This document shows positions 12,646 through 19,183 of a stretch of 40,628 nt of DNA, piece after piece. Position numbers and translations under genes: made by a program. Source of the DNA: an uncultured Pseudomonadota bacterium (GTDB taxonomy: Bacteria; Pseudomonadota; Gammaproteobacteria; Steroidobacterales; Steroidobacteraceae). The stretch's first letter is position 1. Each line of letters starts with the position of its first letter. The stretch covers positions 1-40,628 of the forward strand of contig CALGVD010000081.1 of assembly GCA_937920275.1 (NCBI GenBank). Reading direction: 5' to 3'. The notes beneath the pieces were generated by a model. It made no database searches. It was given only the letters and a program-made list of their open reading frames with translations, and had not been told where the DNA came from.

Positions 12646-12686
12646 GGACGATCGACGGTGCGCGTGGATGTTCCCTCGCCGAACGG

Positions 12687-12692
12687 TATCCT
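12687..12692 (+). promoter_or_regulatory. Candidate -10 box for greB
   Basis: TATCCT on the plus strand, 10 nt before the greB ATG. If used, the 5' leader would be only 3-4 nt. The same TATCCTGCC string precedes the M3 peptidase gene at 38468. Confidence 0.4.
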
Positions 12693-12702
12693 GCCGCCCA
12701 TC

Positions 12703-13197
<495 letters not shown>

Positions 13198-13218: not shown

Positions 13219-14640
13219 TCAGCGGACGCGGATGTTGAGGAACTGCCAGGGATCTTCCCGATCGAGCTCCTCGGGGAAGAGCCGCTCACGATCCTGCAGC
13301 GGAGTCCAGTCGGTGTAGGCGCCGACCACCGGGCCGAGGTAGGGCCTGCAGACTTCGAGCGCGCGTCGGAAGTCCATCTCGTCCGGTTCGACCACGCCCC
13401 GGCGCGGGTTCTCCATCGCCCAAACGACGCCCGCGAGCACCGCCACGGTGACCTGCAGGCTGGTGGCATTGTTGAACGGGCAGAGTTCGCGCGCCTCGTC
13501 GACGCTCAACTGTGAACCGTACCAATAAGCGTTGCGGCCATGACCGGCGAGCAACACGCCGAGTTCGTCGATGCCACCCGGGTTGATCTCGTCCATGAGG
13601 ATGCGCTGCTCGTCCTGCATGATGAAATTGCGGCCAGCGAATTCGTGCACCGACAGCACCGCGTCATCGCAGGGGTGATAGGCGTAATGCACGGTCGGGC
13701 GGTAGACCACACGGTCGCCATCACGGACCGAGAGATAGTCGGAGATCGAGATCGCCTCACCGTGCGTGATGAGGAAGCCGTGGAAATGCCCGGCGCGCGG
13801 CGTCCAGGTACGCACCCGCGTCGCAGCGCCCGGCTGCGACAGGAAGATGGAGGATCCGCGACCGAAGTCGTAGCGGTTGCCATCAGCAGGGAAATGCCGC
13901 TCGTGGGAGCCCCAACCGAGTTCGGCGGGTTGGCAGCCCTCGCTCACGAAGCCGTCCACCGACCAGGTGTTGACGAATTCGCCCGGACGCTTGCGCACCG
14001 GCGAGACCTGCGTATCGCGCTCGGCGATGTGGATGACCTTGATACCGAGCGCGTGCGCGAGCCCTGCCCAATCCTCGCGCGTGTGCGGGTCACCCGCAGC
14101 GACGCCGGTGTCGGCGGCGATGTCGAGCAGCGCTTGCTTCACGAAGTGGGACACCAGACCCGGATTGGCGCCATGGGTGAGCACCGCGGTCGGTGCGTCG
14201 GCAGCGCCCTCGCGCAGCGCGAGCGCGGTCTCGCGCAACGCGTAGTTCGTGCGGCGCGCAGCGGGAAGACTGGGGTCGGTATAGCCCCCCGGCCAGGGTT
14301 CGATGCAGGTGTCGAGATAGAGCGCGCCGCGCTCGCGGCAGAAGCGGACGAGATCGATGGACGACACATCGACCGATACGTTGATGACGAAATCGCCCTC
14401 GCCCACCAAAGGGCTGAGCACCGAACGGAGGTTGTCCTGCTTGATCGCTTGCTTGATGAAGCCCACGCCGAAATGTTGGAGGACATGCAAACCGCGATCA
14501 TCCGGCGCGACCACGGTGATGCGGCTCGCGTCGGTGCCGATGTGGCGCAGGATGAGCGGCAGCACGCCCTGGCCGATGCTGCCGAAGCCGATGAACACGA
14601 TACGGCCCGGGAACTTCACGTGGATCTGGTGGTTCGTCAT
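13219..14640 (-). CDS. Homospermidine synthase
   Basis: A 473-residue bacterial homospermidine synthase, which condenses two putrescines (or putrescine and spermidine) in an NAD+-dependent reaction to give sym-homospermidine. The N-terminal Rossmann motif is GFGSIG (18-23). Family stretches are abundant: NVSVDVSSIDLV, YLDTCIEPW, GANPGLVSHFVKQAL, HIAERDTQ, FVNTWSVDGFVSEG, HYAYHPCDDAVLS, AYWYGSQLS and YLGPVVGAYTDWTPL. Length and sequence closely resemble the Blastochloris viridis enzyme. The start ATG at 14640 has AGGAG 12 nt upstream. It lies 31 nt downstream of a GST gene and across from an arginine decarboxylase fusion, an obvious putrescine-precursor supplier. The activity is inferred from strong family resemblance. 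Confidence 0.92.
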   Translation of the reverse strand: MTNHQIHVKFPGRIVFIGFGSIGQGVLPLILRHIGTDASRITVVAPDDRGLHVLQHFGVGFIKQAIKQDNLRSVLSPLVGEGDFVINVSVDVSSIDLVRFCRERGALYLDTCIEPWPGGYTDPSLPAARRTNYALRETALALREGAADAPTAVLTHGANPGLVSHFVKQALLDIAADTGVAAGDPHTREDWAGLAHALGIKVIHIAERDTQVSPVRKRPGEFVNTWSVDGFVSEGCQPAELGWGSHERHFPADGNRYDFGRGSSIFLSQPGAATRVRTWTPRAGHFHGFLITHGEAISISDYLSVRDGDRVVYRPTVHYAYHPCDDAVLSVHEFAGRNFIMQDEQRILMDEINPGGIDELGVLLAGHGRNAYWYGSQLSVDEARELCPFNNATSLQVTVAVLAGVVWAMENPRRGVVEPDEMDFRRALEVCRPYLGPVVGAYTDWTPLQDRERLFPEELDREDPWQFLNIRVR

Positions 14641-14671: not shown

Positions 14672-15355
14672 TCAATCGTTCCGCCAATGCGGCGGGCAGG
14701 TGCGCGCATAGCCGGGCTGCGCCTCGATGCGTGCGAGCCAGCGCCCGAGCGCAGGGTAGTTGGCATCGATGGGCAGGAACCGGCTGGCGAGATCGCCGGC
14801 GCCGGGTCGCGCGAGGGCGCGCCGCAGCAATTGGATGGCGGGGAAGATGACCATGTCGATGGCGCTGTAGTCATCGCCCACGATCCAATCGAACCGCGAC
14901 ACGCGCTGCTCGATGGTGCGGGCCTCGCGCGCCACGACATGCATCGCGTCGGTGAGACCATCGACCGTCAGCGGCGGCTCATCTGCGGGTCCCGGGCCGG
15001 TGCCGAGCAATGTGCGGCAGATGCCCATGATGTGCGGCTCGGTATAGGCCTGGAACTCCTCGATGACCCGGACGATCACGGCGGCTTCCTCAGGCGAACG
15101 GCCGAAGATCGGCGGCTCGGGGTACTTGAGGTCGAGGTAGTACAGGATCGCCACCGACTCGAAGACCACATAGTCGTCGTGCTTGAGCACCGGCAGACGA
15201 CCACGCGGGTTCATCGCCAGCATCTGCGGCGCCTTCTGTTCCTGCAGCGACATCTGCAGAAGGTGACTGTCGTAGGGCAGCCGCTTGTGCTCGAGGGCGA
15301 GCAGCGCCCGCCAAGAGTACGGGCTGCCACTGCCCCACCAGAGATCGATAGCCAT
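14672..15355 (-). CDS. Glutathione S-transferase family protein
   Basis: A 227-residue GST-fold protein. The N-terminal thioredoxin-like domain has SPYSWRALLAL, NPRGRLPVL (cis-Pro) and the glutathione-contact motif FESVAILYYL (ESxAI); the all-helical C-terminal domain follows, including GDDYSAIDMVIFP. Substrate unknown. The start ATG at 15355 has no Shine-Dalgarno, but a consensus-like TACAAT lies 7 nt upstream on the same strand, implying a leaderless or nearly leaderless mRNA. It is probably cotranscribed with homospermidine synthase (31-nt gap) and diverges from the sulfurtransferase-arginine decarboxylase gene over 43 bp. A role in polyamine metabolism is only suggested by position. Confidence 0.88.
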   Translation of the reverse strand: MAIDLWWGSGSPYSWRALLALEHKRLPYDSHLLQMSLQEQKAPQMLAMNPRGRLPVLKHDDYVVFESVAILYYLDLKYPEPPIFGRSPEEAAVIVRVIEEFQAYTEPHIMGICRTLLGTGPGPADEPPLTVDGLTDAMHVVAREARTIEQRVSRFDWIVGDDYSAIDMVIFPAIQLLRRALARPGAGDLASRFLPIDANYPALGRWLARIEAQPGYARTCPPHWRND

Positions 15356-15398: not shown

Positions 15399-18179
15399 AT
15401 GGAACATCGCACTTTCGTCGACGCCGCCACCCTGTCCGCCCATCTGCACGATCCGGACTGGGTGCTCCTCGACTGTCGTTTCGAGTTGGCGCAGCCCGGT
15501 TGGGGCGAAGCGGCGTTCGCTGCAGGCCACATCGAGGGGGCGCAATACGCGCATCTCGACCGTGACCTGTCCTCGGCGGTGACGCCGACGACCGGCCGCC
15601 ACCCGCTGCCGGACCCGGCACAGTTCACCCGTCAGGCGGGCGCTTGGGGCATCGGTCCCGACACCCAAGTCGTCCTCTATGACCAGGACATCGGCGTGTT
15701 CGCGGCGCGCGCCTGGTGGTTGTTGCGCTGGCTCGGCCATCGGCGGGTCGCTGTGCTGGAGGGCGGCTGGGCCGCGTGGAGTGCGGCGGGCCTGCCCACC
15801 TCCCAGACCGCGCAGCCGCGACCCGCGCGGACTTTCACCGGCACCCCCGACCCGACGATGACCGCCGACGCAGCGGCGGTGCAGGCGGGACTCGCCGACG
15901 GCGCGATCCGCCTCGTCGATGCGCGCGGTGCAGAGCGCTTCGCGGGCCGCAACGAGACCGCCGATCCGATCGCAGGTCATGTGCCGGGGGCGGTCAACCA
16001 ACCCTACGCCCAGAACTTCGAGGGTGGCCGAGCGCTGCCGGTCGCTGCGCTGCAAGCGCGCTGGCGAGCGAGGCTCGCGGGGCATGAGCCGGCCGCGCTC
16101 GTCGCCATGTGCGGCTCAGGGGTCAGCGCCTGCCTCAATCTGTTGACGCTCGAGCATGCCGGGCTCGGCGGCGGCAAGCTCTATCCAGGGTCCTGGAGCG
16201 AGTGGATCCGCGATCCGGCCCGGCCCGTGGCGACCGGCGCTGCGCCAGAGCCGCAGCCCTCACCCTCGGCCGCGGCCTGGAGCGTCGCGCGATCGCGCGA
16301 GCTCTACCATGTGCGGGCTTGGGGCCAAGGCTACTTCGATATCAACGAGCGCGGTCATGTGGTGGTGCGCCCGGAGCAGCAGCCGGGCCGCGAGATCGAC
16401 CTCCACGATGTCGTGCAAGGCCTCAAGGCCCGCGACCTCACCGCCCCATTGGTGCTGCGCTTCTCCGGGATCCTCGGCCACCGTATGCGCCAGCTGTACG
16501 ATGCCTTCAGCCGCGCGATCGCCGAGAACGATTACCGCAACCGTTACGCAGCGGTGTTCCCGATCAAGGTCAACCAACAGCGCCTGGTGGTCGAAGAGGT
16601 GTTCCGCTGCGGCGCGGAGTTCGGGTTCGGTCTCGAGGCCGGCAGCAAGCCCGAGCTGCTCGCGGTCATGGCGATGAGCGAGAACTCGCCGGACCGGCTG
16701 ATCGTCTGCAACGGCTTCAAGGATGACGCCTACATCGAGACCGCGATGCTGGCCACCAAGCTCGGCCGCTCGATCGTGCCGGTGGTGGAGAACTACTCGG
16801 AGCTCGGCCTCATCATCAAGCACGCGCAACGCCTCGGCGTGCGGCCGCAGATCGGCGTGCGCGTCAAACTCGCGAGCGAAGGCTCGGGACGATGGAGCGG
16901 TTCAGCCGGCGAGAAGTCGAAGTTCGGCCTCTTCATCACCGAGATCCTGGAAGCGGTCGCGGAACTGCGCCGTCACGGCATGCTCGACTGCCTGAAGCTC
17001 GTGCACTGCCACCCGGGCAGCCAGTTGCAGGACATCCAGCGCGTCAAGGACGCCATCAACGAGCTCGCGCATGTCTACGCGGAGCTCAAGCTTCTCGGTG
17101 CCGGTCTCGAGTACATCGACGTCGGCGGTGGTCTCGGCGTCGATTACGACGGCTCGGCCAGCAACGATGCCTCCTCGATGAACTACAGCGTCGAGGAGTA
17201 CGCGAACGATGTCGTGCACCGCATCGGCAGCGTCTGCAAGACCCGCGGCATCCCGCATCCGATGATCATCAGCGAATCCGGCCGCGCCATCGCTGCGCAC
17301 CACAGCATCCTGGTGTTCAACGTGCTCGGGCGCTCGGCGCTCGATCGGTTCGATGTCAGCGGGCACGAGGACGAAGGCTCGGACAAAGCCTTTCCGCAAC
17401 CCATACTCGATCTGCTCGACGCCTACCGCGAAGCGAGCGGACGGCGCTTGGTCGAGTGTTGGCACGACGCGCTGACCGCGCGCGAGCAATGCCTGCAGAT
17501 GTTCAACCTCGGCCTGCTGTCCCTCGAACTGCGCGGTCTCGCCGAACGGCTCTATTGGGCCACCTGCGCGCGCATCCGTGACCTGTGCCGGCAGCTGGAC
17601 GAAGTGCCCGAGGAGCTCAAAGATATCGAGACCGTCCTCTCGGACCTCTATTTCTGCAACATGTCGGTGTTCCAGTCGCTGCCCGATTCCTGGGCCATCG
17701 ACCAGCTGTTCCCCATCATGCCGATCCATCGCCTCGATGAGCGTCCTGCACGCCATGCGGTGCTCGCCGACATCACCTGCGACTCGGACGGCAAGATCGA
17801 CCATTTCGTCAGCCATCGCGAGATCAAGCGGACGCTCGAGGTGCACGAGATGGAGGAAGGCGACGAGTATTACCTCGCGGCGTTCCTGGTCGGCGCTTAT
17901 CAAGAGACGCTGGGTGATCTTCACAACCTGTTCGGGGACACCCATGTGGTGCACATCAGGCTGGAGGACGACGGCGGTTGGTTCATCGAAGAGACCGTCG
18001 CCGGCGACACCGCCAACAAGGTGCTCGAATACATGGAGTACGATGTCGCCGAACTCGTCCCGGCGCTCGCCCGCGACTGCGAACGCGCGATCCGCGAGGG
18101 GCGCATGACCGTGGCGGAGGGCCAGGAACTGCGGCGCTTCTACGAGCGCGAGCTCAACGGCTACGCCTATCTGGAATGA
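15399..18179 (+). CDS. Fusion: 3-mercaptopyruvate-type sulfurtransferase + biosynthetic arginine decarboxylase
   Basis: A single 926-residue frame joins two enzymes. Residues 1 to about 285 are a two-domain sulfurtransferase with the active-site loop CGSGVSAC (Cys238), the 3-mercaptopyruvate sulfurtransferase type. After a Pro/Ala/Ser linker of about 20 residues, residues about 300-926 are SpeA-type PLP arginine decarboxylase: FPIKVNQ (PLP lysine K390), LEAGSKPELLAV, KSKFGL, DVGGGLGVDYDG, SESGRAIAAHH, DSWAIDQLFP, LADITCDSDGKIDHF and AYQETLGDLHNLFGD, ending YAYLE. Both parts have full family length and no stop or frameshift at the junction. The ATG at 15399 has CCGGAG upstream; the frame runs 38 codons further back into the divergent GST gene. 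SpeA makes agmatine, a putrescine precursor, and homospermidine synthase lies across the divergent promoter. Confidence 0.92.
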   Translation: MEHRTFVDAATLSAHLHDPDWVLLDCRFELAQPGWGEAAFAAGHIEGAQYAHLDRDLSSAVTPTTGRHPLPDPAQFTRQAGAWGIGPDTQVVLYDQDIGVFAARAWWLLRWLGHRRVAVLEGGWAAWSAAGLPTSQTAQPRPARTFTGTPDPTMTADAAAVQAGLADGAIRLVDARGAERFAGRNETADPIAGHVPGAVNQPYAQNFEGGRALPVAALQARWRARLAGHEPAALVAMCGSGVSACLNLLTLEHAGLGGGKLYPGSWSEWIRDPARPVATGAAPEPQPSPSAAAWSVARSRELYHVRAWGQGYFDINERGHVVVRPEQQPGREIDLHDVVQGLKARDLTAPLVLRFSGILGHRMRQLYDAFSRAIAENDYRNRYAAVFPIKVNQQRLVVEEVFRCGAEFGFGLEAGSKPELLAVMAMSENSPDRLIVCNGFKDDAYIETAMLATKLGRSIVPVVENYSELGLIIKHAQRLGVRPQIGVRVKLASEGSGRWSGSAGEKSKFGLFITEILEAVAELRRHGMLDCLKLVHCHPGSQLQDIQRVKDAINELAHVYAELKLLGAGLEYIDVGGGLGVDYDGSASNDASSMNYSVEEYANDVVHRIGSVCKTRGIPHPMIISESGRAIAAHHSILVFNVLGRSALDRFDVSGHEDEGSDKAFPQPILDLLDAYREASGRRLVECWHDALTAREQCLQMFNLGLLSLELRGLAERLYWATCARIRDLCRQLDEVPEELKDIETVLSDLYFCNMSVFQSLPDSWAIDQLFPIMPIHRLDERPARHAVLADITCDSDGKIDHFVSHREIKRTLEVHEMEEGDEYYLAAFLVGAYQETLGDLHNLFGDTHVVHIRLEDDGGWFIEETVAGDTANKVLEYMEYDVAELVPALARDCERAIREGRMTVAEGQELRRFYERELNGYAYLE

Positions 18180-18271: not shown

Positions 18272-19183
18272 ATGAACCGTCCGATCTTTGCGCTCGCCGC
18301 CGCCCTCGCCGCGCTGCTCGCCGCCCCCGTCACCGAAGCCCGGCAGAAGCCGGCCGCGATCGACCTGTCTACGCCCGCTGGGGCTGCGCTGGCGCAGCGC
18401 AAGATCCAATGCTCGGCGATCGACAATGTCGCCGTCACCTACACCTTCCACGGCGAGGCCTTCGCGCGCGTACCCGGTGAGCGTGACCGCAAGCTGTTCG
18501 ATGTCGAGGGCATGAACGTCCGCCAATGCGTCACCGTGACCGATCCGCAGCGCGGCACCGGTTGGCGTCTCGTATCGCGCGAACTGCTGCTCTACATCGA
18601 CCCGGCCACGGGCGAGATCCTGCGCGAATGGAAGAATCCCTGGACGGGGCAGACCGTCAAGGTGCTGCAGACCACCAACGACCCGGTCAACCAGCGGCCT
18701 GTGTTCCCGGCGACCACCGACAGCCGCTTGACGGGCTGGCGCGGAACCATCAACGGGGACACTTGGTGGGACACCATCACGGTGCCGCTGTTCTATTCCA
18801 ACCCGCTTGCAGGCCCCTACCAGAAGCAGATCGGCGGCTTCTACCACGCCACGGAGATGTTCAATTTCTTCGGCAAGATCTCCGAGCTCACCGATCCGCG
18901 CAACACGAACCCGGCGGTCAATGTCGGTTGGGTGCGGATGGCCGATTGGCTGCCTTGGATGGAGATGAGCGGACGCGCAGGGATCATCTACATGCACGCC
19001 GCCGGTCGGAAGATCGACGACTATTCGCAGCTGCCCAAGGTCATGCGCGATGCGATCGAACAGGAGTATCCCGCGTACCGCACCCCGCCCCCGGGTGATG
19101 ACGCGCGCGCGAACGAGACCAGCTGGACGCTCTACAAAAAGACCTTCCCACCCCCGGCCGCGGTGCAACCCGCAGGGAAATAG
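18272..19183 (+). CDS. Secreted DUF1838-family protein
   Basis: A 303-residue protein with a Sec signal peptide (about 1-23, cleavage near TEARQ). The mature part is rich in tryptophan and aromatic residues: MNVRQCVTVTDPQRGTGW, YIDPATGEILREWKNPW, WWDTITVPLFYSNP and YHATEMFNFF resemble the DUF1838 family, of unknown function and often found near oxidoreductases. The ATG at 18272 has GGAGGA about 7 nt upstream. It follows the arginine decarboxylase gene in the same direction but has its own candidate promoter, so a functional link is not implied. Confidence 0.82.
   Translation: MNRPIFALAAALAALLAAPVTEARQKPAAIDLSTPAGAALAQRKIQCSAIDNVAVTYTFHGEAFARVPGERDRKLFDVEGMNVRQCVTVTDPQRGTGWRLVSRELLLYIDPATGEILREWKNPWTGQTVKVLQTTNDPVNQRPVFPATTDSRLTGWRGTINGDTWWDTITVPLFYSNPLAGPYQKQIGGFYHATEMFNFFGKISELTDPRNTNPAVNVGWVRMADWLPWMEMSGRAGIIYMHAAGRKIDDYSQLPKVMRDAIEQEYPAYRTPPPGDDARANETSWTLYKKTFPPPAAVQPAGK

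Follow-up and report, generated by a model that had tools for sequence, protein, structure and literature searches.

Green et al. 2011 is reportedly a source for fusions of polyamine enzymes, such as that of AdoMetDC with an aminopropyltransferase. According to PMC12803844, natural polyamine-enzyme fusions are known, the AdoMetDC-aminopropyltransferase being one example. Like the protein described here, it is a natural fusion with a polyamine-pathway decarboxylase; it joins linked steps of one pathway, whereas the partner here is a sulfurtransferase without a shared intermediate. Searches of open-access papers revealed no description of a protein joining a sulfurtransferase to arginine decarboxylase, nor of a greB-hss-GST / sseA-speA locus.

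The closest described counterparts of the N-terminal half are the 3-mercaptopyruvate/thiosulfate sulfurtransferases SseA of E. coli (1URH), 1OKG of Leishmania and human MST (4JGT), with which the tandem rhodanese fold and the CGSGV(S/T)A loop are shared. In contrast to these enzymes, the N-terminal half scored below the NCBI SseA cut-off and is joined to a decarboxylase. The C-terminal half corresponds to the biosynthetic arginine decarboxylase SpeA (TIGR01273; E. coli 3NZQ, V. vulnificus 3N2O) in its full model length, the FPIKVNQ motif, the helical bundle and the C-terminal extension. The fused version differs from SpeA by bearing an N-terminal sulfurtransferase and, of the five fused genomes, two have no start codon left for speA itself. 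The sulfurtransferase-SpeA protein looks like a real and rare gene fusion. The families are known and the architecture is new; it is probably a union of two ordinary enzymes without a new activity.

Composition of the fused protein

The features of the window, i.e. the whole analysed stretch of 40,628 nucleotides, that are referred to below are the following.

12658..13197, + strand: greB, edge of the conserved block (TIGR01461, 223.4 bits, over the cut-off)
13219..14640, - strand: hss, homospermidine synthase (4plp, E 2.5e-178)
14672..15355, - strand: glutathione S-transferase (GST) family gene, divergent from the fusion (GST_N and GST_C domains)
15399..18179, + strand: fused sseA-speA gene, 926 aa (open junction also in L054, L055, L056 and L070)
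15399..16238, + strand, residues 1-280: tandem-rhodanese (MST/TST-type) N-terminal domain (two PF00581 matches; CGSGVSAC with Cys238; MST/rhodanese by Foldseek)
16239..16277, + strand, about residues 281-293: Ala/Pro-rich linker (pLDDT below 50 at 281-292)
16278..18179, + strand, residues 294-926: SpeA, biosynthetic arginine decarboxylase (TIGR01273; 3n2o, 3nzq and 3nzp by sequence and fold)
18272..19183, + strand: DUF1838 protein, downstream neighbour (PF08894)

The preliminary description had reported an uninterrupted 926-codon frame with a sulfurtransferase followed by a complete SpeA-type decarboxylase, separated by about 20 linker residues. The reading of the open frame (926 codons and a stop at 15399-18179 on the + strand, without an internal stop) and the domain searches agreed with the order of the parts, whereas the linker came to about 14 residues between the homologous parts. 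The product would be expected as one polypeptide of about 100 kDa. The start was taken as ATG 15399, with GGAG nine bases upstream; it is uncertain due to two alternative in-frame starts, ATG at 15354 (15 codons upstream) and TTG at 15285.

In the N-terminal half, two PF00581 (Rhodanese) matches were obtained with 65.7 and 37.1 bits (cut-off 22.2), giving the tandem-rhodanese arrangement of two domains with the cysteine in the second. The CGSGVSAC loop corresponds to residues 238-245 of the fused protein. Cys238, which we take to be the catalytic cysteine of the second rhodanese domain, was kept in 18 of 18 SseA-bearing rows of a 35-row alignment from which G021 was left out, and the CGSG loop presumably suggests mercaptopyruvate as the sulfur donor. 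The sequence and fold matches included both mercaptopyruvate sulfurtransferases and rhodaneses. The cut-off of PRK11493, the NCBI SseA/MST equivalog, was missed (129.9 vs 250 bits), therefore the earlier assignment as a 3-mercaptopyruvate-type enzyme rests on the active-site loop and the fold: the two rhodanese domains and CGSGVSAC speak for it and the equivalog score against it.

The C-terminal half contained Orn_Arg_deC_N, Arg_decarb_HB and Arg_decarbox_C in Pfam. Its completeness as a SpeA was confirmed with TIGR01273 (SpeA equivalog), which matched residues 294-926 with 752.9 bits (cut-off 624.1) over model positions 1-624 of 624. The FPIKVNQ motif spans residues 387-393, and its K390, in our understanding the PLP lysine, was kept in all 21 SpeA-bearing rows of the same alignment, again with G021 left out. 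The further SpeA motifs DVGGGLGVDYDG, ESGRA and DITCDSDG were intact; their roles are likewise assumed by us. The SpeA of the window is nearer to that of the Myxococcales-titled records L071 and L072 (47%) and of G611, a genome from a different class of the phylum (49%), than to the SpeA of nine genomes belonging to its own order (39-44%). Judged from sequence likeness, this may be a hint of horizontal transfer.

The AlphaFold2 model of the fused protein (35 rows) had a mean pLDDT of 81 and a pTM of 0.56. The SseA part was confident and the SpeA part mostly so, with pLDDT below 50 in linker residues 281-292 and in several SpeA loops, motif-bearing stretches among them; the mutual placement of the domains was not fixed by the model. 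Foldseek with the model returned the SpeA structures 3n2o, 3nzq and 3nzp first, followed by sulfurtransferases.

Distribution and origin of the fusion

The genus sample comprised 24 genomes. Five of them had an open junction with SseA and SpeA in a single frame: the genome of the window (G000), G008 (DBCG01000057, UBA964), G004 (CAMAQZ010000004), G015 (CANHFH010000057) and G021 (RFTM01000130). The fusion was of full length in the first four, and the proteins of G008, G004 and G015 were 97, 97 and 83% identical to that of the window, respectively. The SpeA half of G021 was damaged, the two pieces of the protein being 78 and 85% identical to the window's; its SpeA part (L070:1612-3169) lacked about 330 bases that L056 has, and the frame changed there, owing to either a deletion or an assembly fault. 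In 17 of the 19 unfused genus genomes sseA and speA were adjacent with a stop between them, the alignment gaps ranging from 32 to 195 bases. As to the other two, the genes were on different contigs in G020, and only one weak match was obtained in G017.

Among the matches listed for 396 genomes of the order, no stop-free full-length fusion was detected outside G000, G004, G008 and G015, with G021 in two pieces, and among those listed for 398 genomes of the phylum only the window's own fusion was found. The search for the same two-domain architecture that had been suggested at the outset thus returned it within the genus and nowhere else among these matches. Forty further family junctions with a long reported open frame were inspected; SseA was present in 37 of them, none fused, and three were without SseA. 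At 63 other loci, where SpeA was less than 48% identical, no SseA was found in the stretch examined.

The record L055 (CAMAQZ010000004.1) is titled Klebsiella pneumoniae. Its protein shares 97% of its residues with that of the window and its locus is syntenic with the uncultured genus; the name looks wrong.

In a tree of 30 genomes, calculated from SseA and SpeA with the linker removed, the five fused rows formed one side of one branch with support of 100/100. The fused state required one change on the tree compared with a shuffled mean of 4.8. The nearest relative of the five was the unfused G006 (joining branch 87/98), in which the sseA stop and the speA start overlap as ATGA in different frames. 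Since the fused genomes form one clade, the unfused pairs are adjacent with a stop between them and the nearest relative has the ATGA overlap, the sequences point to a single fusion event within one genus, from a pre-existing adjacent sseA-speA pair. A small indel at an ATGA-like junction would have brought the two genes into the same frame and eliminated the stop; the own start of speA would also have been lost.

An internal start of SpeA was considered as a candidate and rejected. Each of the 13 unfused loci inspected in the genus had possible SpeA starts in the junction stretch. L056 and L070 had no ATG, GTG or TTG from residue 242 or 237 to a GTG inside the conserved N-terminus of SpeA (312, 320). 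The other three fused genomes had only a GTG at residue 277, a codon of the SseA tail without a Shine-Dalgarno match. Such a match was also missing where the fused gene itself starts in L056 and L070, and several unfused loci had none at their SpeA start. Because true starts in these genomes often lack one, its absence is weak evidence against GTG 277, and some chance of a separate SpeA start is left in those three genomes.

Selection was estimated as dN/dS by Nei-Gojobori, with G021 left out of the SpeA pairs of fused genomes. Among the fused genomes the SseA values were 0.13-0.21 (6 pairs) and the SpeA values 0.04-0.16 (5 pairs), in comparison with 0.08-0.19 and 0.01-0.05 among unfused pairs (8 pairs each). 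Both domains of the fusion are under purifying selection, and its SpeA is under somewhat weaker constraint than the SpeA of unfused relatives. Evolution was faster in the linker stretch of 19 codons, with 0.34, 0.44 and 1.1 in three pairs, values that come from few sites. For SpeA of the window and L009 a dN of 0.073 was determined at a dS of 0.52, whereas four unfused pairs with dS of 0.50-0.72 had dN of 0.004-0.016. The similarity of SpeA to seven outgroup rows was lowest in the five fused genomes, 75.6-78.0% vs 78.2-81.3% in 18 unfused ones. The faster evolution of SpeA in the fused genomes is suggestive and appears not to be tied to the fusion itself, since the SpeA of the unfused G006 also had a high dN against the fused genomes (0.070-0.090 at dS of 0.73-0.93) and two unfused genomes were about as distant from the remaining genus members (83.7 and 85.3%). 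Fusion-specific SpeA changes were found at 3 of 351 otherwise invariant positions, with 0-7 in nine unfused groups.

The loss of a stop codon, which had been offered earlier as a simple cause, is thus upheld as an evolutionary event and not as a sequencing artefact, in view of the clade-wide state and the purifying selection. The recurrence of the open junction in five of the 24 genus genomes, in assemblies that form one clade, excludes chance and led us to reject a sequencing error at the junction. The named sources are metagenome assemblies, one of which shows gene damage (G021); against an artefact, four of the five assemblies sharing the open junction have different accession prefixes, and in two of the five the start of SpeA is gone as well. 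That a sequencing or assembly error removed a stop is accordingly extremely improbable.

Conserved gene block and polyamine pathway

A conserved block, greB-hss-GST / sseA-speA, was seen across the genus and the family. At the 17 genus loci the GST gene was placed divergently beside sseA in every case and hss followed on its far side in 16, L070 being the locus whose contig stops short of it. Of 12 stretches belonging to other family genera, all 12 contained greB, 11 a GST gene (one cut by the edge) and 10 hss.

At 11 of the 17 loci of the genus, speA was followed by a methyltransferase gene, either immediately or within a distance of about 4 kb. The gene was missing in L054, L055, L056, L058, L060 and L069 and present in the fused L070; in the window, no methyltransferase gene lies after the fusion between 18179 and 18272. 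In several relatives the methyltransferase start sits on the speA stop (e.g. L063:8828-9964).

In L138, L149 and L151, from one other genus of the family, a GST-like frame and speA were divergent with no SseA match between them. The long open frame above speA in these three is the antisense of the GST-like frame, as judged by eye from its likeness to the GST of the window. They may hold SseA elsewhere, two matches existing for each and one being among the matches listed. An SseA match without a SpeA match was obtained in G029 and G035. Due to these two groups of genomes, the sseA-speA tie, as read from the sequences, is common in the family and not strict.

The neighbouring homospermidine synthase had been put forward as strengthening the polyamine context, and the context turned out to be stronger than claimed: apart from the linkage of hss, both enzymes leading from agmatine to putrescine were detected in the window's genome. 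AguA (agmatine deiminase) matched with 413.8 bits and AguB (N-carbamoylputrescine amidohydrolase) with 454.6 bits, over its cut-off of 410.25. The Hss of the window matched 4plp in full length (residues 4-476 of 476). As AguA and AguB are in the genome and hss is in the window, there is an obvious route from SpeA to homospermidine: the SpeA part would convert arginine to agmatine, AguA and AguB would carry this to putrescine, and Hss would form homospermidine.

No match to the arginase/agmatinase family (PF00491) was obtained in the window's genome. Two further PF02784 proteins were found in it, a bifunctional aspartate kinase/diaminopimelate decarboxylase (over the cut-off) and one that scored below every NCBIfam cut-off, so an ornithine route is still possible. 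In nine other genus genomes the deiminase was present in eight and AguB was over the cut-off in seven; PF00491 matches were obtained in two, G015 (an arginase over the cut-off) and G016 (not classified). The fused genome G015 (L178 / L187) thus has an arginase and no deiminase match, while the nine other genomes searched all had a deiminase.

Possible role of the fusion

The protein is best pictured as an MST/TST-type sulfurtransferase and SpeA that fold separately and are held together by a short linker; its likely effect would be to keep the two independent activities at a fixed 1:1 ratio and in the same place. From the sequences, we consider it probable that this is a true fusion of single origin, in which two independent enzymes are carried on one chain in a fixed ratio without chemical coupling. 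The single polypeptide in the cell, the presence of both activities, the route of fusion and the lack of coupling are all inferred by us, and the linker may be cleaved after translation.

The fusion may instead be neutral, i.e. tolerated and not selected, giving nothing beyond the co-expression that the adjacent genes already had. We regard this as a possible, though somewhat less than likely, account, and its chances overlap with those of the two-independent-enzymes reading because the molecular picture is the same and only the benefit differs. The single origin in a small clade, the prior adjacency of sseA and speA with partly overlapping junctions, and the fast evolution of the linker are in line with neutrality. 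Against it, the open frame persists across SseA parts up to 24% and SpeA parts up to about 15% apart, which would fit neutrality too.

A coupling of sulfur handling with polyamine synthesis through the fusion had also been proposed as a possibility. In that case the sulfurtransferase would serve, or act directly on, SpeA or the polyamine pathway and the fusion would have been selected for it, e.g. for persulfidation of SpeA cysteines or for thiol protection together with the neighbouring GST. The clustering of sseA, speA, hss and GST in the genus and in other genera and the continued selection on both domains after fusion would favour coupling, and the lowest outgroup similarity of the fused SpeA could reflect adaptation. 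However, linkage alone is weak evidence, since the housekeeping gene greB is linked as widely, and the proposal is weakened by the three genomes of another genus without an SseA match between GST and SpeA (which may lie elsewhere) and by G029 and G035. The linker is of low model confidence, by established chemistry a sulfurtransferase and SpeA share no metabolite, and we know of no intermediate common to the two families. Functional coupling, including the two examples, is therefore judged unlikely. Of still lower probability is a broader version in which greB-hss-GST / sseA-speA forms a thiol-polyamine module, where the sulfurtransferase and GST would serve homospermidine synthesis and the fusion would have made this permanent. 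If it were true, the sulfurtransferase might persulfidate SpeA and so tune or protect it.

With two independent enzymes on one chain as the preferred reading, the value of the locus lies in its history and its setting. The steps from separate genes through an overlapping stop and start to a fused frame would provide a clean natural series of gene merging within one genus, and the finding points to a conserved locus where a sulfurtransferase and a GST stand beside homospermidine synthesis.
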